DNA of 64,000 bases, taken from Sabellastarte sp. h YS-2021. Lineage: Eukaryota; Annelida; Polychaeta; Sabellida; Sabellidae. Position numbers and translations under genes: made by a program. Location: contig OZ024936.1 in assembly GCA_964017235.1 (NCBI GenBank), positions 31,332,040-31,396,039 on the forward strand. Reading direction: 5' to 3'. Shown piece after piece: positions 20,186-64,000 of the stretch (its first letter is position 1; each line of letters opens with the position of its first letter). The notes under the pieces were generated by a model. The model was not told where the DNA came from and searched no databases. It saw nothing but the letters and a program-made list of their open reading frames with translations.

Positions 20186-20394
20186 TAGAATTGAATCTAG
20201 AGCCTAAAAGGTCAAAAGCAAGTTTTACTTGTTATATCTCCGTACCCACTTCCCCCAGAATTCCATTGTGATGTCACAACTTAGGAAGGTAAACACACAT
20301 TGCCAGCTTTTCTTTTTTTTCACCCCACTGGGTACATACACATGTGAAGTGTTGCAAAAGCTGAGGGCCATGATGATTACTGGTTCCAGGATCT

Positions 20395-20600
20395 GCATGC
20401 TGTGCTGTAGCTTGACCAGTTCCCATCTGATCACTGAAATCAAGCAGCACCAGCCTTGGCTAGTACTTGGAGGGGTTACTGTCTAAGGTCTGGGCCATTT
20501 TTTGGACAGACACATGATGACTCAGATGATCATTTTAATGGTGGTCCTGTGGCAACATAACTGAGCAAGGTACTTGACGTAATGTTAAATCAATCAACAA
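20395..20600 (+). mobile_element. 5S rRNA-derived SINE or 5S pseudogene
   Basis: CTGATCACTGAAATCAAGCA then CAGCCTTGGCTAGTACTTGG AGGGG follows the 3' half of eukaryotic 5S rRNA, including the box A and box C promoter regions (compare GATCTCGGAAGCTAAGCAGG and CTGGTTAGTACTTGGATGGG). The 5' half is poorly conserved and no T-run terminator directly follows. Downstream sequence to about 20600 ends in AATGTTAAATCAATCAAC, a plausible SINE tail. Divergence is too high for a functional 5S gene. Confidence 0.65.
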
Positions 20601-51559: not shown

Positions 51560-52186
51560 ATTACTTTACTTATCAGAATGGTTATGTTACAGTTGGGTAT
51601 AATCACAAAAGTAAAGAAGGTGTGGAATTCCTCTCTAGAGTGGGGCCAGATAATAAAGATATCATCTAAGAACCTTAAGTATGTAAGTGGTTGCTGTGGA
51701 CATTTAGAAAGGGCTCGATTTTTCCAATTTGCCATAAAAATGTCAGCATATTCTGGGGCAATTTTTTTTTGCACATAGCTGTCCCCCAAATTTGAAGGAA
51801 CCACTCTTGGTTGAAGGTGAAGTCATTGTTCGCCAAAGAAATTTTGAGAAGGTCAATTACTCCCCGGTCAGGTCTGGATGGGTATTTATTAAAATTTCCT
51901 GTACTGCCTTAAGCCCATTTGCATTGTCAATGTTGGTATAAAGGGTGTCTACATCAAGAGTAATTAAAAGGGCGTTTTCTGAACTTTAATTTTGCTGATA
52001 AAATCTGGGGTGCCTTTTAATTATGAGGGGTGTAGGTTGGATATAGGTATGAGGTAACAGTCAATAAATTCCGAGATTGTAGGTGTCACTAGAGCAATCA
52101 GAAACAATAGGTCTGCCAGGTGGGAGAGTGCCTTGAAGCCATTTAACCTTAGCTTTGTGTATTTTGGGGAGTAAGTAAAACATTCT
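51560..52186 (-). pseudogene. Penelope-like element reverse transcriptase, middle part
   Basis: Reading leftwards from 52186: MFYLLPKIHKAKVKW, PPGRPIVSDCSSDT, LITLDVDTLYTNID (RT motif A), then IAPEYADIFM and YLRFLDDIFIIW (motif C). LPKIHK, GRPIVS and the YTNI and LDDIF contexts are hallmarks of Penelope-like RT. The frame is broken by stops and shifts, and similarity ends soon after SREEFHTFF at about 51560. The rest of the RT and the GIY-YIG endonuclease expected downstream are missing. It continues directly from the PLE part at 56025-58570 once the inserted L1-type LINE is set aside. Confidence 0.85.
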
Positions 52187-52370
52187 TTTTTTTGTTTATT
52201 AAACAAAACAAAAACAAAGCATACAAGTACAATCATAATAATGATTAAATGATTATGAAATTATTAGGATTTAGGATACTATTTAGGTACTGAATTAAGC
52301 AATCAGACATTACCTTATTTATACAGATATTGAGTTATTTTTACATTTTGAGAATTAATTTATTCCTGGA

Positions 52371-55276
52371 TCATTCAATTAAAAACTCGCTGAACACCGA
52401 CCACAACAGTTGAAATTTATCGTATGTATTGTTTATTTTTGCCAAGTATTCTTGTTCAGTGTAGATATTTCTGATATAGTTTTGAAAATCAAGCACATTT
52501 AATGGTTTTAAATTTCGTGAACATTTCCAAATAATTTTTTTTCCTGCTAAAAGAGTTAAATTTTTGGGGAACATATCTAACTCATTTTCTAAAACACCAA
52601 ACAAAAGAAAGATTGGTGTTAAATTAATATAAATACCAAGTGATTGAAGCCATTGTCTAAAATTTCTCCAGAAGTCAATAACAACAGGACAAGCAGCAAA
52701 TAAGTGATAAATTGTTTCAGCAGATGACTGATAGAAAGCACAACTGTTTATGCTAATCTTTTGTAAGTAAGCTCTAGTACCTAGAATTCTATGAATAATA
52801 CGAAATTGAAGCCAAATTAGGTCATTTCGACATATAGTTTTGAAACAATATTTAAAGATTTTATTCCATGTGTCATCATTTATAGTAGTGTTTAAGACAT
52901 TATTCCATTTATTTCGTAATGATAAATTTTTATATTGATCATTAAGAGTTTCGTAAAAGCATTTTGAACCTTTTACCCGACTCAGTAGTACTTTTAACTA
53001 TGATGGCAGTACAGGTCTGCTGCAAGTATAATGCTTTATACTGAATTTGAGCAAATAATCTTTTAAGCATCTTTGAACACTTAAATGTTCAAGAAAGTTA
53101 GTTTTGAGACCAAATATCTGTCTTAATTCAAACATACTTAAAGCACTGCCATCAGGTTTAAGTATATCTAGTGGAGTATTTATTCCAACTCTACACCAAT
53201 GTGGATAAAAAAGAAGTTCAGTAGAAATGTGAAAATTGCACCACAACGGCATAGTTAATGTTTCAGAATGACAAACAGGTAGTCGAGTCAAAAAGGTAAA
53301 CCATGCATTAAATACTTCTTTCCAAAAAATATTGGCCGTTCGTTCTGATAAATATTTTGACCACAAAGGACCAAAATTATATAATCTCTCCACATTTGTT
53401 GTAGATGCCAAGAGTTTTACCCATGGAGATTCGGAAGTAAACAAGCGTTTTATCCAAACTAGTTTTTGAGACATAATGTAATTTTCTATGTTTATCATCT
53501 GGAGACCTCCCTCAATGTAGTTGTTAGTTATTTGCCTCTTACTTATTTTATGTGGTTTGTCATCCCAGATAAAGGAGTACATTAGTTGGTTTAACTGAAA
53601 AATGAATTGTTTGCTTGGAGATGGAATTGAAGAAAGTAAATGATTTAGACTACTAATTACAAAAGTCTTGACAATGCTTATTTTCCCAATTGGAGTCAAG
53701 TTCCTCCTTCTCCATTTACTTAAAATATTTGCGATATCATTCAACAGAGTTGTATAGTTAATCGAAGGGATATCATCAATATCCACTGAAAAATTTAGTC
53801 CAAGCAACTTAAATTTGGTTGTGCCCCAAGCTAGTTGCTGTTTAATTTCAAACTTATGTCTTGAATGTTTTTTCCTGCCAAGCCATATTATTTTGGTCTT
53901 TTCAGTATTTACTTTTAGCCCGGATAATGATCCAAATATTTCTAACGTATTTAATGCCGCAACTAGAGAATCCTTGCTCCCATCTAAGAACAAAGTAGTA
54001 TCATTGGCAAACTGTGTCATTTTGAAGTTTATATTATTAAGAGAAATACCTTTAATATATATGTTATTGTCTACCATACAAAATAAAACTTGGGCACAAA
54101 GCAAAAACAAGTAAGATGATATGGGATCACCTTGTCTGCATCCCCGTTCTATATTAAAGGTGTGTGATAAAAAGCCTGATTGAAGTACTGAAGCTTTAAT
54201 ATCATTATTGAAAATGGTTATCCACTTACAGAAGCTCTTGTCAAATTTCAGTAATTTCAGCAGTTTATACAGGAAGACCCATGAGACAGAATCAAAAGCT
54301 TTCCGAAGTCGATTAGCATTAATTGTCCTGGTAGGTTGTTGTGATCAAGATACTGCATAATGTCATACACGAGACATGTACTGTCCCCAATAAAACGTCC
54401 TTCTAGAAATCCAGTTTGGGCTTTGGAAACTAATTTGGGTAGAACAGATTTCAGTCTGTTTGCTATTGCAGCTGAGGCTATTTTATAAACAACTGATAAT
54501 AAAGAAACTGGACGCCAATTCTTAAGAAATTCCCTTGGTTTGTCACCTTTTGGTAGGCAACTTATTATGCAAGTTCTCATTGAGATTGACATCTTACCAG
54601 ATGTATATGCAAAATTGAGAGCCCTCAACACAAAATATTTCAGTTTACCCCAAAATACCTTGAAAAACTCAGCAGGGAAGCCATCAACTCCTGGACATTT
54701 ATTATTTTTCATTTTAAATAACACCTGGCTAACTTCTTCAAGTTTTAATTCCCCTTCTAATGAGGCCGATTCTAAATGGTTTAACTTTCTAAAATTAGCT
54801 TTCACAATTATAGATTCCAAGTCGTCAGAATCTAGAGATACATTGTTTTGTGCTGAAAATAGTTTACTGTAAAAATGTTGTACTTCTTTCAAAATATCTT
54901 TTTGATCTGTTATTTTTTTGCCAGAATCAAGTTGAACACACCTAATGGTTTTTTCAGTGTAGTTATATTTCTCAAGAGAGCAAAAATATTTAGACGGTCT
55001 TTCTCCCTCATTTAACCATTGTGCCCTTGACCTAATGACAGTTCCCTGAATAGCAATATCCCTAATTTGTTCTAGTTCTTTCTTTTTATCCTAAGTGTGT
55101 CTGAATCCTGTGGATATTGACTGGCCTCTAGGAAGGCTATTTCATTTACTAGCTTATTTTCTAACTCGCAGGTTTGCCTTTTCTGGAAGGAGGCAAATTT
55201 AATGCTTTCACCTCGAATTCGAAGCAATAGCATTTCTAAAAATTCTCCATTAGTTATGGTAAAGTTAACCAAATTA
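52371..55276 (-). pseudogene. Reverse transcriptase and C-terminal region of the L1/Tx1-type LINE
   Basis: Pieces in order: linker with RSRAQWLNEGERPSKYF; NNKCPGVDGFPAEFFK; ISCLPKGDKPREFLKNWRPV; IANRLKSVLPKLV; QTGFLEGRFIGDS; LMLIDF at the motif A end, where one frameshift (about 54300) moves on to KAFDSVSWVF; GCRQGDPISSYLF (about 54140); motif C as TQFANDTTLF (about 54010), where the family has FADD; then a long open stretch (52998-54110). One in-frame TAG at 52998 interrupts a C-terminal region that stays open to 52371. The first catalytic Asp of motif C is changed to Asn. Few lesions overall suggest a fairly young copy. Confidence 0.88.
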
Positions 55277-56012
55277 TCAGGTATTTAATAAGTAATCCAA
55301 AGCGTAGACTGGAATAGCATATTTTTGTTTTTCCTCTTGTATTATAGAATTCACTAGTTCAAGGTAGCTTTTTTCTTTTAGGAGACTGCAATTAAATTTC
55401 CACAGTCCCTTTCCCCTTTCAAATTTGCTCAACATTATTTTAAGTTGAATACTTGAATGATCACTTCTGTAGCTAGGATTAATGTTACAGGCAGTTATGA
55501 TATCTTGCATTGCATTTGAAACCAAGACATAATCGAGTCTTGCTTGTTGAAGTGGATTTTTTCGCCGCCATGTATGTCGTTTTAAGGAAGGATGAAGAAA
55601 ACGAAAAATGACATTAAGATTGTAAATATTTATAATGTCCAATAATACTTTTCTAGATCGTGGATTATTAATATGTTTATATTTGTCACAGTCTAACAGA
55701 GGGTGAAGAATTAAATTAAAATCACCGACAACCATTGCAAATGTCTGAGTGTTGGATTCCAAAATTCCTTTCACGTTCTCAAAAAACTGTGGACAGTCCT
55801 TATTAGGAGCATATATGTTAAGTAATTTAAGTGTTATATCACCTAATTTCAAATCAAGAGATATCATATTACCTTCGTTATCTTTATAAACTGCTGTAAT
55901 TGAATAATCAACTTTTGTGGCCAGTAATATAACAACACCCCTTGAATTTGAAGATTCACCATTTAAAATACATTCTCCATTCCACATTGATCTAATTATA
56001 GGTTCATCTTTT
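55277..56012 (-). pseudogene. Endonuclease domain of the L1/Tx1-type LINE, N-terminus missing
   Basis: The frame from about 55987 contains SRGVVILLATKV, LNIYAPN, AMVVGDFNLILHP (GDFN block), ARLDYVLVSN and YRSDHSSIQL (SDH block). These are the C-terminal two thirds of an APE-like endonuclease in the L1-superfamily style. The N-terminal Asn and the ETH Glu block are gone through 5' truncation. The frame stops at 55277; the linker continues in another frame at 55072-55272 and then 54257-54970. Confidence 0.85.
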
Positions 56013-56269
56013 GTAAAACATTCTAGCCCTAGGTTCTTTAAGTGGTTTAAGGTAATTGACCTGTTTAGAAGTGATGACTTTGGAGCATTTTAATGTATTT
56101 TAAGGTATTGCTAAGTTGTTCATTAACATTGGGGTAAACAGGTTGAGGGATTTGCCTATAGTGTTTGGGGTTAGAGAGTTGGTTTTGGGCTTCTAGGATG
56201 TAGTCCTGAGTGTTAAGGATCACTATGGAGGAGAATGTATTATAAATTTAAATCTGCATGTCTGTTGTC

Positions 56270-56800
56270 TTCTTGGGGTGTGGGGGGACTGAGTTTAAAT
56301 ACCTCACCCATGTGGCCAGCATCTGATTCGCAGTGGTCCTACTCCAGTGGACCAGGTCTGTGGATCAAGGTGTGGATCCGTCCTTGTTGATATGTATGTT
56401 GAAGTCGACTTCTGGAAGAGGGTCCATAAGGGTGATTCCATACTTCTTCAGGGAGGGCAGAGCTAGGTTAATTCTCTTGCGTGTATCCAGTATGGGTGGA
56501 GGTCTATTGGTGGTGAAATTTAGTAGTGGGATGGCTATCTGGGCGTTGGGGAAGGCTTTCTTAAGCTTCTGGGTGAGTTTTTTCAGCTGATCATCAATGG
56601 TGGCAGGAGACATTTCTGTGTTGTTAATTCCTCAGAACAAGACCACATGTGAGACATGGGGCTGAGGAGTGCTGAGAAGGTGTCATGAAATGTGTGAATT
56701 TGGCCCCACTATAGGATACCACTTGAATGTCCAGGTGGCTGGGAGCATGTGTGATCCTATTGATGTTAGAATCCCCAATTACCAATGTGGAAGCGTCAAT
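56270..56800 (-). pseudogene. SGNH/GDSL esterase-like domain of the PLE polyprotein
   Basis: STLVIGDSNINRI near 56770 carries the GDS nucleophile block. VVSYSGAKFTHF follows. GINN near 56625 is the block III position, preceded by a stop (F-stop-GINN). The frame 56365-56613 then gives LKKLTQKLKKAFPNAQIAI and a helical stretch. After one more stop, TDLVHWSRTTANQML near 56345 supplies the D-x-x-H block. These are the Ser, Asn, Asp and His blocks of SGNH hydrolases. Esterase domains of this fold are known in ORF1 of CR1-type LINEs and in some giant PLEs. Two stops and a short frame problem near 56650 break it. Confidence 0.75.
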
Positions 56801-56982
56801 TCTGGGTAGGGTTCAAGGGATGCCTGCTGTCTTCTGGGTGTAATGTTTATTTGGACCCTGGATTGGTACTGTGGTGGGGGAAGGAGGTTGGAGCATGATG
56901 TCATCTACTGTCTCTAATGGATCCTCAAAATTGATGGTTCTTGGTTGGAGGCTTGGTGGAGTGGTAGCTGATTCACCAAGTG

Positions 56983-57579
56983 CTATTGAAGAGACTGAGT
57001 CATCCTGCTGGGCATCAAATCTGGATTGGGCGTAGTATAGATTGGAGTTTTTTCTAAGTAGTCTTCTGATGAATGGGTGGTGCAGTGGGAAGTGGGACGG
57101 ATGGTGCAGGTGGAATTCACTGAAGGTCGTGTGTGGTTATCCTGGATCAGGCTGATGTGTGGGCTGCAATGTGCTGGGGACAATGTTGGGTCTTCCTGGG
57201 GTGGGTCTTGGTTCTTCTGGGCCGATTCATTCATCTGGTTGTTCGTATTGGGATAGTTTGGGTTGGGTCTTCTTCCTGGTTGAGTTTTCCTGGTGTGTTT
57301 CTTGATAGTCTCTGAGGTTTTGGTTGGAGGTCCTGGGTTTGGTGGGGTCTTGCACGGGTTGTTGTCAGCTGGGGTTGTGGCCTTCTGTGGGGTGGGGTGT
57401 CTGGTTGGTGTGGTCCACTTGGTAGGTTCCTTGGGTTTAGTTGGGGTCGTTCTGGGCGTCCTGGGGCTCCTCTGGGATTGGGGTTCTTGTGTGGGTGTAA
57501 CTTGGGTGTGATGGGCCCTCAGTTTCATCAGTAGGGTGAAGAAATAATCTCTCTGTTGTAGGTGGTACCCTCTGGTTTC
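56983..57579 (-). pseudogene. Pro/Thr-rich low-complexity linker of the PLE polyprotein
   Basis: The frame contains many PT, TP, KP and NP dipeptides (TPTQEPQSQRSPRTPRTTP as an example), no hydrophobic core, and a stop at 56981. It begins in frame with the end of the NADAR domain and leads to the SGNH domain after another frame change. It is probably an unstructured spacer. Confidence 0.7.
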
Positions 57580-57935
57580 TGAAAAGAAAGAAGAGCCCCA
57601 AAAGGGGTCAATGAGATTGTGGGTGATTTTCTTTTTGCCAGTTCCAGGAGAGCATTTTTGAATTTTGAAGATTATTGGATTTTGGTTGTCAAGATCTGTT
57701 CCATTATGGACAGTTTGATGAAGTTCCAGCTTACTTTTTGCTTGGGGGAAGAGTTCTTGATCACCTGTGTCCCAATGTTCTTTGCCAAACTTCCAGTTGT
57801 GGCCTGTAGTATGGCATCAGCTGATGATTGGTCTCCCATGTGATGGGCCCTGGAGTGCTGATATGCCTGTTCAGATGATCTAACCCAAATGTTGTTAAAC
57901 CTAAAATTACAAGGGTAGAAATTTGACAAGGGGTG
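57580..57935 (-). pseudogene. NADAR (YbiA-like) domain inside the PLE
   Basis: The frame from 57929 gives LSNFYPCNFRFNNIWVRSSE closely followed by QAYQHSRAHHMGD, ILQATTGSLAKNIGTQV, W, and IMEQILTTKI. After one frameshift at about 57675 the next frame supplies NPIIFKIQKCSPGTGKK and IDPFWGSSF. LSNFYPC, SSEQAYQ with its conserved Glu, AK-x-hG, the mid-domain Trp and D-x-FWG in this order are diagnostic of NADAR domains. NADAR proteins cleave N-glycosidic bonds in riboflavin precursors (YbiA) or ADP-ribose modifications. The role inside a retroelement is unknown. A separate host gene is unlikely because the reading continues into the SGNH and PLE RT parts. Confidence 0.8.
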
Positions 57936-57939
57936 TTGG

Positions 57940-58570
57940 GTCCCTTGTACAGTGTGTCTCTCTGTGTGTGGGTCATAGAGGGGCGTCTTTTGGGGTCTGG
58001 TGGGGTAGGTTTTCTCATCTTCCTGGGAGTCTGGAAATCCTGCTGTGATTTGGTTGTTGAAGGAGGGATTGGGTACCCTGATGTGGGTTTGTTGCTAGTG
58101 TTGGGGATCACTAGACTGTCCAGTAGATTCTTCAGAACCTGGTAATCTCTTTTGGTGGCGAGGTTGACGATCTGGTGGAACAGTCTGAGGCTTGATGGTT
58201 GCACTTTCTTGTGTTTTTGTTTGAGGGTGAGGGTGGCTCTCTGAACAGCTGTCCTCACCTCCCAGGGGTTGCACTCAGTTGAGCCAATAGAAAAAGCCAA
58301 AAAGAAAATTAAAGAAAATAGTACGACTGAAGGTTGGCCAAAGAAGCACCTTGTAATTGGTAATAGCCTGAACCTGATGTCATCGGTGGGGTTTGTTGGT
58401 CTAAACAAGTCCAGTAGATCCCCCTTGATTTTGAGAAAACTACCCGGGAGACGAATTTCTGCTCCAGGTGGACCAATCCATGAAAGGTGGTGACAGATCT
58501 GTAGAATTTTCAGAATCTGTGTGAATATTTGGTTGTTTGTTGATGATGCCATTGTTTTCATGAAAGGCAC
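57940..58570 (-). pseudogene. N-terminal region of the PLE-associated polyprotein, unrecognised
   Basis: The open frame starts at 58570 (MPFMKTM; a second Met, MASSTNNQIF, is 7 codons in). It contains HHLSWIGPPGAEIRLPGS, a hydrophobic segment around LFSLIFFLAFSIG, a Lys/Arg-rich helical-looking stretch (RTAVQRATLTLKQKHKKVQ) and DYQVLKNLLDSLV, then a Pro/Lys-rich tail. I do not recognise a family. The frame runs into the NADAR region out of frame at about 57930, so a one-base indel lies there. Confidence 0.5.
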
Positions 58571-59300
58571 TATATCATGCTCAGAATGGGTGTTATCAGT
58601 GGTACAAATATATACAGTAAAATATGAGAGAAAAACAAGGCAAATGCAAAAGATAGAAACTGCTGTCCACTAGGGACTTACTTTAAAAAAAATAAAAAAA
58701 GCAATAAAAATAAAAAAGCAATAAAAATAACAAAGCAAACACAATAGGAGAGCTTTTACATACAGTATTATAACACTAGAGTTTTTCTGTTGTGTATTAT
58801 CTATCAAAATTATTTCTTTCCTTATTGAAGATTATTACAAAAAAGTGTAAACTAGAAAAGAACAATACTTCCCTTCAAAGATAATAAATCCAAATATCTA
58901 ACTAGAGCCCGACCGGTTTTGGCTTGTTAGCCTTCTTCATGGGCTTAGGTTGACTGAAGAACCATGGCAAATAGTGGAGTTTATATAGCATGAAAAGGTA
59001 ATTCCCTTGTATTAGATTGAAAAGAAGGCCTATAGAAACGTTTTTGAAGGGATTACAATTTGGAATAACAGGGGGTTACAACAAGAGGGGATTAGGGAGG
59101 TGTGAGGAACAGATTAATTTTGTGATTGAAAATTGGAATTGATTCCCTCTTGGATTGTAATTTAGAGATCATCAGTCATGGTTTCTTCAGTTGAGTCAGA
59201 CTGCAATCGTTTTGGGGAGAGAATTTTGAAGATGGGGGTGAATTAGTGGGTTAGAGTGCACGTGCACTTTGTGAGTGCGCATGTACCTAAGTTGTGAATA
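58571..59300 (-). other. Upstream non-coding region of the PLE (candidate pseudo-LTR)
   Basis: The A-rich stretch at 58680-58740 and the hammerhead-like motif at 58905 lie upstream of the PLE reading frame, as expected of a PLE 5' pseudo-LTR. The outer boundary could not be set. Confidence 0.45.
58905..58946 (-). ncRNA. Degenerate hammerhead-ribozyme-like motif
   Basis: Minus strand: closing stem AGCCC..GGGCT, then ATGAAGA in the position of the CUGANGA core, hairpin GGCTAACAAGCC as stem II, AAAAC where GAAA is expected, a short self-complementary CCGG and GTC at the cleavage position. The layout matches the minimal hammerheads in PLE pseudo-LTRs, but at least two core bases differ from consensus, so cleavage is unlikely. 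Confidence 0.55.
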
Positions 59301-59639
59301 ATCAAAATTTAAAGTTAAAAAAAAAGGAAAAAAATTTTTTTTATGGTGTTGTAAAATACGTTAATTGGCTGTAAAAGGGGCTGTTTGAGAATAAATTATT
59401 ATGATTTTAATGTGTTTAAAAAAAGGGCAAGGTTTTTTTTAACCAACTTAACTAACTGCCAACTTCAGGTTGCGTGTTCCGTGACAGTACTGTTTTGAAA
59501 CAATGACTTGGTTTTATGGGTCTTAGAATGAATCTGCTGGCACATATATTAATTAAAGATTAATTATGGCAAAACATTAATTTAAAACACCAAGTTTTAT
59601 AACACAAAGGACCACTACTTTTTTATCTATCTAGGTTTT
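59301..59639. other. AT-rich spacer
   Basis: Nothing recognisable beyond A- and T-runs. Confidence 0.45.
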
Positions 59640-59789: not shown

Positions 59790-62700
59790 ATAGGGACTAA
59801 CGAATGAGACAGGAAAAGTAGTAAAGTGGATAAATATATTTGATATAAGTATTGATGTGACAACTGAAATTTAGATAATCAACTTTAGAATGCATGACCA
59901 AGTGAAAACATGGACACTCTAGTGGTAACAGATTCCTACATAGTAGGGGAGTGGAGAAACATGACCCTTTCATGGCCCAAAATACAGCCATATTTAAGCC
60001 TTACACCATAAGTGCTTTTTAACAATGGAACAATGTGCCAAATTTAAAAGACACTTTGCCAAATATGGTTACATCGGGAACGTGTAAACATGATTCACCA
60101 AAACAATGATCCCATATTTGTAATGGTTTTAAAATATTATTAGAAAAAGTAAATATCCACTAGGCTTTAGCTTTTCATCAACTCGTGTCAAGTTAGAAAT
60201 TACTGCCCATGTTACAGCTGGGCTCATTTACAAACAAGCCATAAGAATTGTTTTGTGTCACATATTTATTGTAAGTGACAATTTCACAGGTAGTGGTGTC
60301 CTTCCACTGCATGCTTGCCTAACAGTGAATGCCCACGTCGGTAAATTTTGTACAAAATCAGTTTTTCCTTGGTAGGCTGAGCTGTTTTTTTCTGTTAGAA
60401 AACATGGTTTCGTTTTGGTGCAGAAGAAAAAACTAAATTTCTCAAAAATGCCTGAAGCAAGGAATAAGTAAGCTACACCTTTAAAATGCATAATACATGC
60501 TGCATATTTCTCATGTCATTGCAGTCACTCATTAATTAACTGCAATGTAATTAATAACAAATAACCCAAATAACAAAGTGAACTGCTCACAATGACAACA
60601 GCACGGCATAAACAGGAGGTACCCATATGAAAAAACTTCCAGTAGTGAGAATGATAATTTAAGTTACCACCAAAAACGTTCTAAATGTTATGGGAGTTAC
60701 TTACATTGTGTGCTAAAGGCATTACAAATGAAATAACAGCAATTGCATTTATTAGTGTTATATTTTAAGGGGAAAAATTATCTCACGAAGTATTTAAAAA
60801 ATGTTATACCTGTGTGACCAGGCTTCTTTGTAGAAAAATCATGGAATAGACTTCAGTCTTCTAACAGGTAAATAGGGACTAACGAATGAGACAGGAAAAG
60901 TAGTAAAGTGGATAAATATATTTGATATAAGTATTGATGTGACAACTGAAATTTAGATAATCAACTTTAGAATGCATGACCAAGTGAAAACATGGACACT
61001 CTAGTGGTAACAGATTCCTACATAGTAGGGGAGTGGAGAAACATGACCCTTTCATGGCCCAAAATACAGCCATATTTAAGCCTTACACCATAAGTGCTTT
61101 TTAACAATGGAACAATGTGCCAAATTTAAAAGACACTTTGCCAAATATGGTTACATCGGGAACGTGTAAACATGATTCACCAAAACAATGATCCCATATT
61201 TGTAATGGTTTTAAAATATTATTAGAAAAAGTAAATATCCACTAGGCTTTAGCTTTTCATCAACTCGTGTCAAGTTAGAAATTACTGCCCATGTTACAGC
61301 TGGGCTCATTTACAAACAAGCCATAAGAATTGTTTTGTGTCACATATTTATTGTAAGTGACAATTTCACAGGTAGTGGTGTCCTTCCACTGCATGCTTGC
61401 CTAACAGTGAATGCCCACGTCGGTAAATTTTGTACAAAATCAGTTTTTCCTTGGTAGGCTGAGCTGTTTTTTTCTGTTAGAAAACATGGTTTCGTTTTGG
61501 TGCAGAAGAAAAAACTAAATTTCTCAAAAATGCCTGAAGCAAGGAATAAGTAAGCTACACCTTTAAAATGCATAATACATGCTGCATATTTCTCATGTCA
61601 TTGCAGTCACTCATTAATTAACTGCAATGTAATTAATAACAAATAACCCAAATAACAAAGTGAACTGCTCACAATGACAACAGCACGGCATAAACAGGAG
61701 GTACCCATATGAAAAAACTTCCAGTAGTGAGAATGATAATTTAAGTTACCACCAAAAACGTTCTAAATGTTATGGGAGTTACTTACATTGTGTGCTAAAG
61801 GCATTACAAATGAAATAACAGCAATTGCATTTATTAGTGTTATATTTTAAGGGGAAAAATTATCTCACGAAGTATTTAAAAAATGTTATACCTGTGTGAC
61901 CAGGCTTCTTTGTAGAAAAATCATGGAATAGACTTCAGTCTTCTAACAGGTAAATAGGGACTAACGAATGAGACAGGAAAAGTAGTAAAGTGGATAAATA
62001 TATTTGATATAAGTATTGATGTGACAACTGAAATTTAGATAATCAACTTTAGAATGCATGACCAAGTGAAAACATGGACACTCTAGTGGTAACAGATTCC
62101 TACATAGTAGGGGAGTGGAGAAACATGACCCTTTCATGGCCCAAAATACAGCCATATTTAAGCCTTACACCATAAGTGCTTTTTAACAATGGAACAATGT
62201 GCCAAATTTAAAAGACACTTTGCCAAATATGGTTACATCGGGAACGTGTAAACATGATTCACCAAAACAATGATCCCATATTTGTAATGGTTTTAAAATA
62301 TTATTAGAAAAAGTAAATATCCACTAGGCTTTAGCTTTTCATCAACTCGTGTCAAGTTAGAAATTACTGCCCATGTTACAGCTGGGCTCATTTACAAACA
62401 AGCCATAAGAATTGTTTTGTGTCACATATTTATTGTAAGTGACAATTTCACAGGTAGTGGTGTCCTTCCACTGCATGCTTGCCTAACAGTGAATGCCCAC
62501 GTCGGTAAATTTTGTACAAAATTAGTTTTTCCTTGGTAGGCTGAGCTGTTTTTTTCTGTTAGAAAACATGGTTTCGTTTTGGTGCAGAAGAAAAAACTAA
62601 ATTTCTCAAAAATGCCTGAAGCAAGGAATAAGTAAGCTACACCTTTAAAATGCATAATACATGCTGCATATTTCTCATGTCATTGCAGTCACTCATTAAT

Positions 62701-64000
62701 TAACTGCAATGTAATTAATAACAAATAACCCAAATAACAAAGTGAACTGCTCACAATGACAACAGCACGGCATAAACAGGAGGTACCCATATGAAAAAAC
62801 TTCCAGTAGTGAGAATGATAATTTAAGTTACCACCAAAAACGTTCTAAATGTTATGGGAGTTACTTACATTGTGTGCTAAAGGCATTACAAATGAAATAA
62901 CAGCAATTGCATTTATTAGTGTTATATTTTAAGGGGAAAAATTATCTCACGAAGTATTTAAAAAATGTTATACCTGTGTGACCAGGCTTCTTTGTAGAAA
63001 AATCATGGAATAGACTTCAGTCTTCTAACAGGTAAATAGGGACTAACGAATGAGACAGGAAAAGTAGTAAAGTGGATAAATATATTTGATATAAGTATTG
63101 ATGTGACAACTGAAATTTAGATAATCAACTTTAGAATGCATGACCAAGTGAAAACATGGACACTCTAGTGGTAACAGATTCCTACATAGTAGGGGAGTGG
63201 AGAAACATGACCCTTTCATGGCCCAAAATACAGCCATATTTAAGCCTTACACCATAAGTGCTTTTTAACAATGGAACAATGTGCCAAATTTAAAAGACAC
63301 TTTGCCAAATATGGTTACATCGGGAACGTGTAAACATGATTCACCAAAACAATGATCCCATATTTGTAATGGTTTTAAAATATTATTAGAAAAAGTAAAT
63401 ATCCACTAGGCTTTAGCTTTTCATCAACTCGTGTCAAGTTAGAAATTACTGCCCATGTTACAGCTGGGCTCATTTACAAACAAGCCATAAGAATTGTTTT
63501 GTGTCACATATTTATTGTAAGTGACAATTTCACAGGTAGTGGTGTCCTTCCACTGCATGCTTGCCTAACAGTGAATGCCCACGTCGGTAAATTTTGTACA
63601 AAATCAGTTTTTCCTTGGTAGGCTGAGCTGTTTTTTTCTGTTAGAAAACATGGTTTCGTTTTGGTGCAGAAGAAAAAACTAAATTTCTCAAAAATGCCTG
63701 AAGCAAGGAATAAGTAAGCTACACCTTTAAAATGCATAATACATGCTGCATATTTCTCATGTCATTGCAGTCACTCATTAATTAACTGCAATGTAATTAA
63801 TAACAAATAACCCAAATAACAAAGTGAACTGCTCACAATGACAACAGCACGGCATAAACAGGAGGTACCCATATGAAAAAACTTCCAGTAGTGAGAATGA
63901 TAATTTAAGTTACCACCAAAAACGTTCTAAATGTTATGGGAGTTACTTACATTGTGTGCTAAAGGCATTACAAATGAAATAACAGCAATTGCATTTATTA
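59790..64000. repeat. Tandem array of a 1082-bp unit (satellite-like), open at the right edge
   Basis: Each unit starts ATAGGGACTAACGAATGAGA. Starts are at 59790, 60872, 61954 and 63036, a constant 1082-bp period. The last unit is cut by the window edge after about 965 bp. Units are nearly identical; the one difference I noticed is a C-to-T at about 62522 in unit 3. Short minus-strand frames of 64 and 77 codons recur in every unit but show no recognisable domain, and no tRNA, rRNA or snRNA was recognised. The sequence left of 59790 does not continue the repeat. Confidence 0.97.

Follow-up and report, generated by a model that had tools for sequence, protein, structure and literature searches.

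The window, the 64,000-nucleotide stretch of DNA analysed here, contains on its minus strand what is, judged by its sequence, a decayed and now dead Neptune-type Penelope-like element (PLE) interrupted by a LINE. We propose, with a probability of about 0.6, that a NADAR domain in ORF1 of this PLE family has been kept by selection and hydrolyses ADP-ribose from the element's guanines, and that an SGNH domain in the same ORF handles lipids or membranes.

Results

Layout of the window element

Read along the element, a broken hammerhead core is followed by an N-terminal domain, NADAR, a Pro/Thr linker, an SGNH esterase and the reverse transcriptase (RT). The initial annotation placed NADAR and SGNH upstream of the RT; the order holds, but the domains belong to separate reading frames, NADAR and SGNH to ORF1 and the RT to ORF2. 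It also described a single element at 51560..58946. A minus-strand PLE is indeed present, but it contains a 3.8-kb LINE and its limits of homology differ, as listed below.

51594..59307, minus strand: entire stretch homologous to the genomic paralogue L025 (five blastn blocks, 78-84% identity)
58905..58945, minus strand: decayed core of a hammerhead ribozyme, with mutations in both boxes (alignment with six paralogues; fold no better than shuffles)
57929..58561, minus strand: ORF1 N-terminal domain, homologous in paralogues
57508..57953, minus strand: NADAR domain (PF08719) with frameshifts and one stop (Pfam profile)
56813..57507, minus strand: Pro/Thr-rich linker (translation)
56293..56812, minus strand: SGNH esterase domain with GDSN, GINN and DLVHW (residues read; Pfam weak; fold of a relative's domain)
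56233..56291, minus strand: deletion junction, ORF2 start missing (comparison with L025)
56013..56232, minus strand: ORF2 RT part 1, SSIVIL..NPKHYRQIPQPVYP..RARMFY (protein matches and L025 alignment)
56013..56024, minus strand: LINE target-site duplication, left copy, AGAATGTTTTAC
52187..56012, minus strand: inserted 5'-truncated LINE (endonuclease, RT, zf-RVT) with an A-rich 3' end (Pfam; boundaries)
52175..52186, minus strand: LINE target-site duplication, right copy
51594..52186, minus strand: ORF2 RT part 2, LLPKIHK..GRPIVSD..LDVDTLYTNI..LDDIF, frameshifted and 3'-truncated

The LINE splits the PLE RT, and the 12-bp duplication lies at both of its sides. The beginning of the RT frame has lost about 0.35 kb, with 59 bp left where L025 has 407 bp, so that the window copy lacks some 140 codons from the start of ORF2. 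RT homology stops near 51594, ahead of any GIY-YIG, and at the 5' side homology to L025 reaches 59307, past 58946. The N-terminal domain shows a weak likeness to the ORF1s of fish PLEs (18% and 14% identity).

The NADAR-SGNH arrangement recurs in the genome

Among the 12 Neptune-type RT loci retrieved, NADAR was found in 9 and SGNH in 11. PLE-type NADAR domains occur at no fewer than 16 places in the genome, a lower bound that takes in few of the weaker matches, with SGNH downstream at 15 of the 16 and the N-terminal domain upstream at 13; near-identical copies in tandem arrays do not count as independent. Outside this count lies a 57-residue NADAR match with 54% identity, at C4:15127714. Additionally, Tx1-like LINEs with NADAR in ORF1 occur in this genome.

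The same order is also present in an open ORF1: in L031 a single unbroken frame, at least 916 codons long, encodes the N-terminal domain followed by NADAR, the linker and SGNH. A single frame joins the N-terminal domain and NADAR in L016, and in L021 the C-terminal half of NADAR, the linker and SGNH share one frame. The initial annotation would have been refuted by other RT copies lacking both domains upstream, or by a NADAR-SGNH part standing alone as a separate repeat. Copies that depart from the full arrangement exist in the stretches examined, namely L020 and the four loci of a second, more distant PLE class (L026-L029), which have neither domain, L015 and L022, which have SGNH without NADAR, and L038, which has NADAR without SGNH; on the counts above they are exceptions and not the rule. 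The SGNH query overran slightly into ORF2, and matches at its residues 160-195, the sole match in L020, were therefore taken as ORF2 and not counted as SGNH. The assignment of both domains to the PLE is supported.

Conserved and altered residues of the PLE NADAR

The NADAR call for the window was confirmed by Pfam PF08719, with 36.6 bits in a single open frame (cut-off 35.1) and 50.5 bits when the broken protein was read through with X. Paralogue frames covering most of the domain scored 62-82 bits (L031, 77.1) and the half-domain of L021 scored 39.9; the structures 2b3w (YbiA) and 8bau also match the PLE NADAR.

Residues E43, K50, W89, D130 and W133 are conserved in all eight aligned PLE rows, which represent three subfamilies. 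According to the available text of PMC11543638, each of them either touches ADP-ribose or has been probed by mutagenesis. In contrast to the Glu found in 19 of 21 other rows, position 125 (numbering of the P. nicotianae NADAR) is His in 8/8 PLE rows, and the last-strand Glu expected of the YbiA subfamily is thus absent from these rows. Pairwise matches place His there also in the window, L021, L024/L045, L025/L041 and L047/L048, while the L046 match ends ahead of this position, L044 repeats L023 and L069 repeats L038. The window copy additionally has Arg at the catalytic Lys position (K50) beside its His at the catalytic E/D/H position (E125). R79 is mostly lost (N in six of the eight rows, C in one, R in one), and the segment ahead of D130 is a residue shorter in PLE NADARs than in 8bau or the Tx1-like rows, a gap common to most other rows.

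PLE and Tx1-like LINE NADARs formed separate clades (UFBoot/SH-aLRT 100/97 and 93/92) in a tree that left out broken or duplicate rows (window, L021, L024, L025, L041, L044, L045, L046, L047, L048 and L069). Support for joining the PLE clade with L062/L065 was weak (81/51), with a long-branch warning from the tree tool. Recent borrowing of the PLE NADAR from this genome's Tx1-like LINEs is unsupported, given the separate clades and the different residue at position 125.

A protein database search with the short window NADAR frame returned no candidate, and one with the NADAR region of the decayed read-through returned 74, none at E<=0.001 and none a NADAR-ORF1 relative. Pattern scans of viral contigs matched 1 and 30 stretches, none of them a relative.

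The SGNH domain

The window domain retains GDSN, GINN and D-x-x-H, and the S, G, N and D-x-x-H residues are likewise present in L031. Pfam reported GDSL_2 in the window at E 1e-4 (23.2 bits, under the cut-off of 32.9); L002 was similarly below cut-off, and L001, L021 and L031 gave no Pfam match. When the SGNH sequence of L031 was run by itself against the PDB, one chance-level match resulted (E 0.59). A profile built from two sequences, the homologous domains of the relatives L001 and L002, however, matched the zebrafish L2 ORF1 esterase 4c1b (E 1.1e-5). Structure prediction for the L001 domain, from a two-row alignment, gave an SGNH hydrolase fold (pLDDT 76.5) whose best match among SGNH hydrolases had E 4.9e-6; in that search 4c1b, whose structure is domain-swapped (PMC3905857), ranked 40th with a poor TM-score (0.41). 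The SGNH assignment made at the outset is upheld by these residues together with the relative's fold and profile match, though not by the Pfam score of the window itself.

Reverse transcriptase and Neptune-group assignment

Using the RT read-through of the window, 1520 of 4853 candidate proteins matched at E<=0.001, the three best being 64-66% identical over the RT region, in agreement with a Penelope-type RT. The nine NADAR-bearing RTs in the RT tree form one clade (SH-aLRT/UFBoot 96.9/100); L022 was dropped from this tree for short cover, L017 was omitted as a near-copy of L018, and 16 of 120 listed proteins were taken. The Neptune label is based on a Cys-rich criterion and on Neptune motifs, in a comparison without a named Neptune reference sequence. 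The criterion is a Cys-rich stretch between the RT and the GIY-YIG endonuclease, as given in the available part of PMC3846280. Relatives and paralogues show these features: L014 has the Cys-rich stretch CSNRCTLC..CNSSNVIYCITCNFCHKLYIGQT after its RT, and Pfam GIY-YIG is above cut-off in ORF2 of L001 and L002 and below it in P0001. The window copy ends before this region.

The hammerhead motif

A hammerhead-like motif had been noted at the start of the element. Its core is conserved at the equivalent place in L014, L016, L017, L019, L021 and L025 and is also present in L001 and L002, with no exact match in L018. The window core, however, is mutated relative to L025 (CTGAAGA to ATGAAGA and GAAAC to AAAAC), and the Rfam hammerhead matched neither the window nor seven paralogues. 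Across the window the exact core pattern occurred six times, where chance alone predicts 4.82, and no occurrence fell at the element's hammerhead site. A strong fold was limited to L001 (z -5.84); those of L016, L017, L025 and the window (z -0.28 to -1.21) were no better than shuffles, so that in this genome's own copies the call leans on the conserved core and not on energy.

Selection on ORF1

For NADAR, dN/dS was 0.21 (L031-L014, 161 codons), 0.26 (window-L031), 0.28 (L031-L024) and 0.33 (window-L025, 155 codons), these being the four diverged pairs with unsaturated synonymous sites; four further diverged pairs were saturated. Values for the N-terminal domain were 0.19 (L031-L014) and 0.17 (window-L025), and for SGNH 0.20 and 0.23 in the same pairs. 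Very recent NADAR pairs gave 0.40-0.52 from few changes. The pairs have copies in common and several copies are decayed. Codon-level comparison thus supports the conclusion that selection has retained the PLE NADAR as a working protein domain.

Discussion

As the paralogues show, the family comprises a hammerhead-like motif, an ORF1 with N-terminal domain, NADAR, Pro/Thr linker and SGNH esterase, and an ORF2 with the PLE RT, a Cys-rich knuckle and a GIY-YIG endonuclease. Members of the NADAR family tested so far take ADP-ribose off guanine. Because the NADAR-bearing RTs form one clade and dN/dS is 0.21-0.33, the domain was most simply acquired once within this PLE lineage and then kept. NADAR would most likely ride with the ORF1 ribonucleoprotein and strip ADP-ribose from guanines in element RNA or cDNA, and SGNH would act on lipids or membranes, a role put forward for LINE ORF1s. 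A role in reversing ADP-ribosylation or countering a host defence, as initially put forward, agrees with the retained active-site residues and purifying selection, and suggests that PLEs of this kind may bring their own eraser of ADP-ribose marks. The change of E125 to His, the frequent loss of R79, the Arg at K50 in the window and the NADAR-less loci L015, L020 and L022 all weigh on the eraser reading.

The strongest alternative, which we consider possible but rather unlikely, is that the NADAR is under selection yet no longer a hydrolase, and instead serves to bind ADP-ribose or some other nucleotide, or plays a structural part in the ORF1 particle. The His at position 125 in all aligned PLE rows and the loss of R79 in seven of eight fit such a domain, as does the shortening before D130, although most other rows share it. 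In E. coli C7 NADAR, changing D171, the counterpart of E125, abolished efficient activity (PMC11543638, available text). Against a loss of hydrolysis, E43 and K50 are kept in 8/8 rows; in the same text the C7 counterpart of K50 is essential and at that of E43 an E-to-Q change inactivates, E-to-A less so in vitro, while K-to-R at the K50 position retained in vitro activity but not antitoxin function. Furthermore, phage NADARs with His at the E125 position are active, removing ADP-ribose from guanosine, according to the available portion of PMC11125620.

A metabolic role, with riboflavin precursors or free sugars derived from NAD as substrates, is improbable. The NCBIfam model TIGR02464 (riboflavin-intermediate N-glycosidase) does match L031 with 79.3 bits (cut-off 73.7), but it also matches the Tx1-like LINE NADAR of L049 with 80.6 bits and so seems to track fold and not substrate; moreover, a retroelement would have no evident reason to retain a riboflavin step. 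That NADAR-SGNH is a chance neighbour, either the inserted LINE's ORF1 or an unrelated repeat next to a piece of a PLE, is scarcely credible even though NADAR-bearing LINE ORF1s exist here and a LINE separates SGNH from most of the RT, since the NADAR clades are separate and the LINE origin is ruled out by the duplication, which puts both LINE ends within PLE RT sequence, by RT part 1 lying on the SGNH side and by the identical order in other copies.

Returning to the proposed hydrolysis of ADP-ribose, a more specific version is tentative, with the odds somewhat against it: the lineage's ORF1 protein may be a guanine de-ADP-ribosylase with a phage-type His that rescues element RNA or cDNA from a host ADP-ribosylating enzyme. 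If so, and considering the genome's many NADAR-bearing LINEs, ADP-ribosylation of nucleic acids would be an animal anti-transposon defence, which two retroelement classes would have answered independently, much as phages answer DarT.

The family shares with Neptune-type PLEs the RT core, the Cys-rich knuckle before GIY-YIG, the hammerhead motif and tandem copies, and differs in that its ORF1 carries a NADAR after the N-terminal domain and ahead of the linker. The fish-like PLEs L001 and L002 have an SGNH ORF1 as in this family, whereas NADAR is absent from L001 ORF1 and from the covered parts of L002. Earlier papers describe SGNH in PLEs, and NADAR in Gypsy and Tx1 elements. The ORF1 of zebrafish ZfL2-1 (4c1b) has an SGNH esterase, also found in Penelope-like elements (PMC3905857); the domain here is of the same kind and keeps the catalytic residues, but is joined to NADAR. 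Similarly, the Terminons/Athena PLEs of bdelloid rotifers carry an esterase (GDSL) ORF, but are endonuclease-deficient and telomeric, with no mention of NADAR found in the available text of PMC5408684 and PMC6431247. In Crassostrea gigas NADAR occurs in Tx1 LINE ORF1s, and in Ectocarpus it occurs in Gypsy Pol (PMC12477816), likewise captured by a retroelement but of another class. The PLE NADARs are set apart from this genome's Tx1-like NADARs, with His and not Glu at 125, in a comparison confined to sequences other than those of Ectocarpus and oyster. DarT1-NADAR and phage NADARs have the fold in common, and in the text available the phage proteins also have His at the third catalytic position; they are stand-alone antitoxins or phage proteins, however, and not a domain of a retroelement ORF1.

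We found no report of NADAR within a PLE in the literature searched. PLEs would thus be a third retroelement class with NADAR, apparently captured separately from the LINE NADARs of the same genome. The role of NADAR in animals is called open in the available portion of PMC11125620; in this lineage selection, beyond mere presence, marks an animal NADAR as mattering, and its place in a mobile element's own ORF1 restricts the likely substrates to nucleic acid of the element, the element's ribonucleoprotein or some host factor that acts on it.

Structure of the PLE copy

The window DNA is eukaryotic (G+C 36%; genome 1.786 Gb) and carries a dead Neptune-type Penelope-like element (PLE), whose domains lie on one strand in the order proposed by the initial annotation:

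58945-58905, minus: hammerhead core, decayed
58561-57929, minus: N-terminal domain
57953-57508, minus: NADAR (Pfam)
between NADAR and SGNH domain, minus: Pro/Thr linker
56812-56293, minus: SGNH domain
56232-56013, minus: PLE RT, first part
between the two PLE RT parts: LINE of 3.8 kb encoding endonuclease, RT and zf-RVT
52186-51594, minus: PLE RT, second part

The NADAR claimed for this element is borne out by the Pfam profile, with 36.6 bits in a single open frame and 50.5 bits in the read-through. The hammerhead-like motif is present as a decayed core. The genomic paralogue L025 aligns with 59307-51594 of the window (minus strand) in five blocks at 78-84% identity.

The sequence AGAATGTTTTAC, which represents the codons for RMFY within the PLE stretch RMFYLLPKIHK, flanks the LINE on either side (56013-56024 and 52175-52186). 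Thus, the LINE jumped into the PLE, leaving RT on both of its flanks. The ORF2 pieces of the inserted LINE share 27-35% identity with ORF2 of two LINEs in this genome that carry NADAR, and no ORF1 of its own remains.

About 0.5 kb from the outer end of PLE homology, a 1,082-bp unit is repeated head to tail (59790-64000, approximately four copies, at least 99.9% identity) up to the window edge; it is absent from the TRF list, where the longest period is 500. A 5S rRNA gene or pseudogene was also identified at 20387-20505 (44.9 bits against a gathering score of 38).

Recurrence in the genome

A genome search with ORF2 gave at least 65 matches; counts from this search are lower bounds, since scoring covered 60 of the 5488 first-look candidates. 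Among the 12 Neptune-type loci that were fetched (L014-L025), nine contain NADAR and 11 contain SGNH; within the fetched stretches, L015 and L022 have SGNH without NADAR, and L020 has neither. The NADAR search (1680 first-look candidates, 150 matches listed) identified at least 16 PLE-type NADAR places, including that of the window, and SGNH follows on the same strand in 15 of these 16. One locus, L038, has NADAR without SGNH. The N-terminal domain precedes NADAR at 13 of the 16 places, a count that omits a match of only E 0.02 in L046; no match to this domain was found in L023 or L042. The domain order therefore recurs in paralogues, the check suggested with the initial annotation. In the paralogue L031, the N-terminal domain, NADAR, linker and SGNH lie in a single open frame that is 916 codons or longer, and overlapping parts of this frame are present in L016 and L021. 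The copies are not all independent, because some are in tandem on C1 and C14.

A second PLE class, represented by four loci (L026-L029; 37-40% identity to the ORF2 query), gave no N-terminal, NADAR or SGNH match at E 1e-3. This class has many open frames of about 822 aa with another ORF upstream, and its copies on C3:35.67-35.70M are about 6.03 kb apart.

Selection and catalytic residues

Pairwise dN/dS for NADAR was 0.21 (L031-L014), 0.26 (window-L031), 0.28 (L031-L024) and 0.33 (window-L025), and 0.40-0.52 in very recent pairs with few changes; synonymous sites were saturated in four NADAR pairs (L023 and L025, each with L031 and L014). For L031-L014 and window-L025, respectively, values were 0.19 and 0.17 in the N-terminal domain and 0.20 and 0.23 in SGNH. 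SGNH reached 0.48 in L014-L023, and the window-L025 RT gave 0.42. The linker gave 2.8-5.3 in recent pairs, with almost zero synonymous change.

Residues were aligned to the Phytophthora nicotianae NADAR (8bau), with numbering shifted by 2 to fit the nine residues named in PMC11543638. E43, K50, K75, W89, D130 and W133 are retained in all eight aligned PLE rows, which span three subfamilies. Position R93 is K in all eight, and E125 is replaced by H in all eight, while 19 of the 21 rows from outside this group carry Glu there. In the window copy, K50 is R and E125 is H. Phage NADARs share the His at E125, according to PMC11125620, which also reports that the NADARs tested, including one from phage, removed ADP-ribose from guanosine and that some gave cells no protection from DarT1. 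What the analysis demonstrates is the architecture, its recurrence, the selection and the residues.

Proposed function

We propose that the ORF1 protein may coat or escort element RNA. Its SGNH domain could supply lipid or membrane contact, on the model of ZfL2-1, for which PMC3905857 offers such contact as a proposal. The NADAR would remove ADP-ribose from guanines. Guanine ADP-ribosylating enzymes exist in animals; PMC11543638 names pierisins and CARP-1, with butterfly and clam references.

Relatives and origin of the NADAR

The read-through of the window RT had 1520 protein matches; the top 120 range in length from 585 to 1690 aa, mostly about 750 aa, and many of them have GIY-YIG. In two fish-like PLE relatives, L001 and L002, an overlapping SGNH-domain ORF precedes ORF2; no NADAR match was found in the whole ORF1 of L001 or the ORF1 parts covered in L002. 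For the L001 domain, an AlphaFold model based on an alignment of two rows matched SGNH hydrolases, and the two-row L001/L002 profile gave a match to 4c1b, the ORF1 esterase of zebrafish L2 (E 1.1e-5). L001 and L002 are animal retroelement DNA within bacterial genome records (an Epulopiscium single cell and an Enterovibrio MAG), probably fish contamination. SGNH in PLEs has already been reported (PMC3905857), and rotifer PLEs resemble the window family in having an esterase-type ORF, described as GDSL in PMC5408684 and PMC6431247. A canonical PLE with a single ORF is described in PMC11167929.

The NADARs of PLEs group in one clade (UFBoot/SH-aLRT 100/97) and those of the Tx1-like type in a separate one (93/92). 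In the RT tree, all nine NADAR-bearing copies included fall in a single clade (SH-aLRT/UFBoot 96.9/100), shared by four protein relatives compared by RT alone (P0001-P0003 and P0119); L001 and L002 lie outside it, and the deep nodes are weak. The simplest reading is that NADAR was gained once, long ago, in this PLE lineage and has been retained since.

A NADAR in a retroelement is not unique to the PLE, as PMC12477816 describes it in Tx1 ORF1s of Crassostrea gigas and also in Gypsy elements of Ectocarpus, where it lies in Pol. No NADAR within a PLE was found in the literature covered on NADAR/YbiA, Penelope/Neptune, SGNH/GDSL and Tx1, a coverage that excludes most subscription papers. The genome abounds in LINEs whose ORF1 combines zinc knuckles with NADAR (L049/L050 and L051 among them); they are called Tx1-like by likeness to those oyster elements and not by tree. 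A 257-residue ORF1 query spanning both features gave 148 matches from 2307 candidates, an EN-RT ORF2 lies behind ORF1 in both elements followed, and the catalytic position is Glu in all eight aligned rows. L062 and L065 (frames of 835 and 528 aa) carry a further NADAR type, which is placed weakly as sister of the PLE clade. Long open frames of 1188 and 1221 aa (L052 1-2067 and L053 1825-5487), with one and two NADARs, respectively, and charged stretches, are either host genes or other elements.
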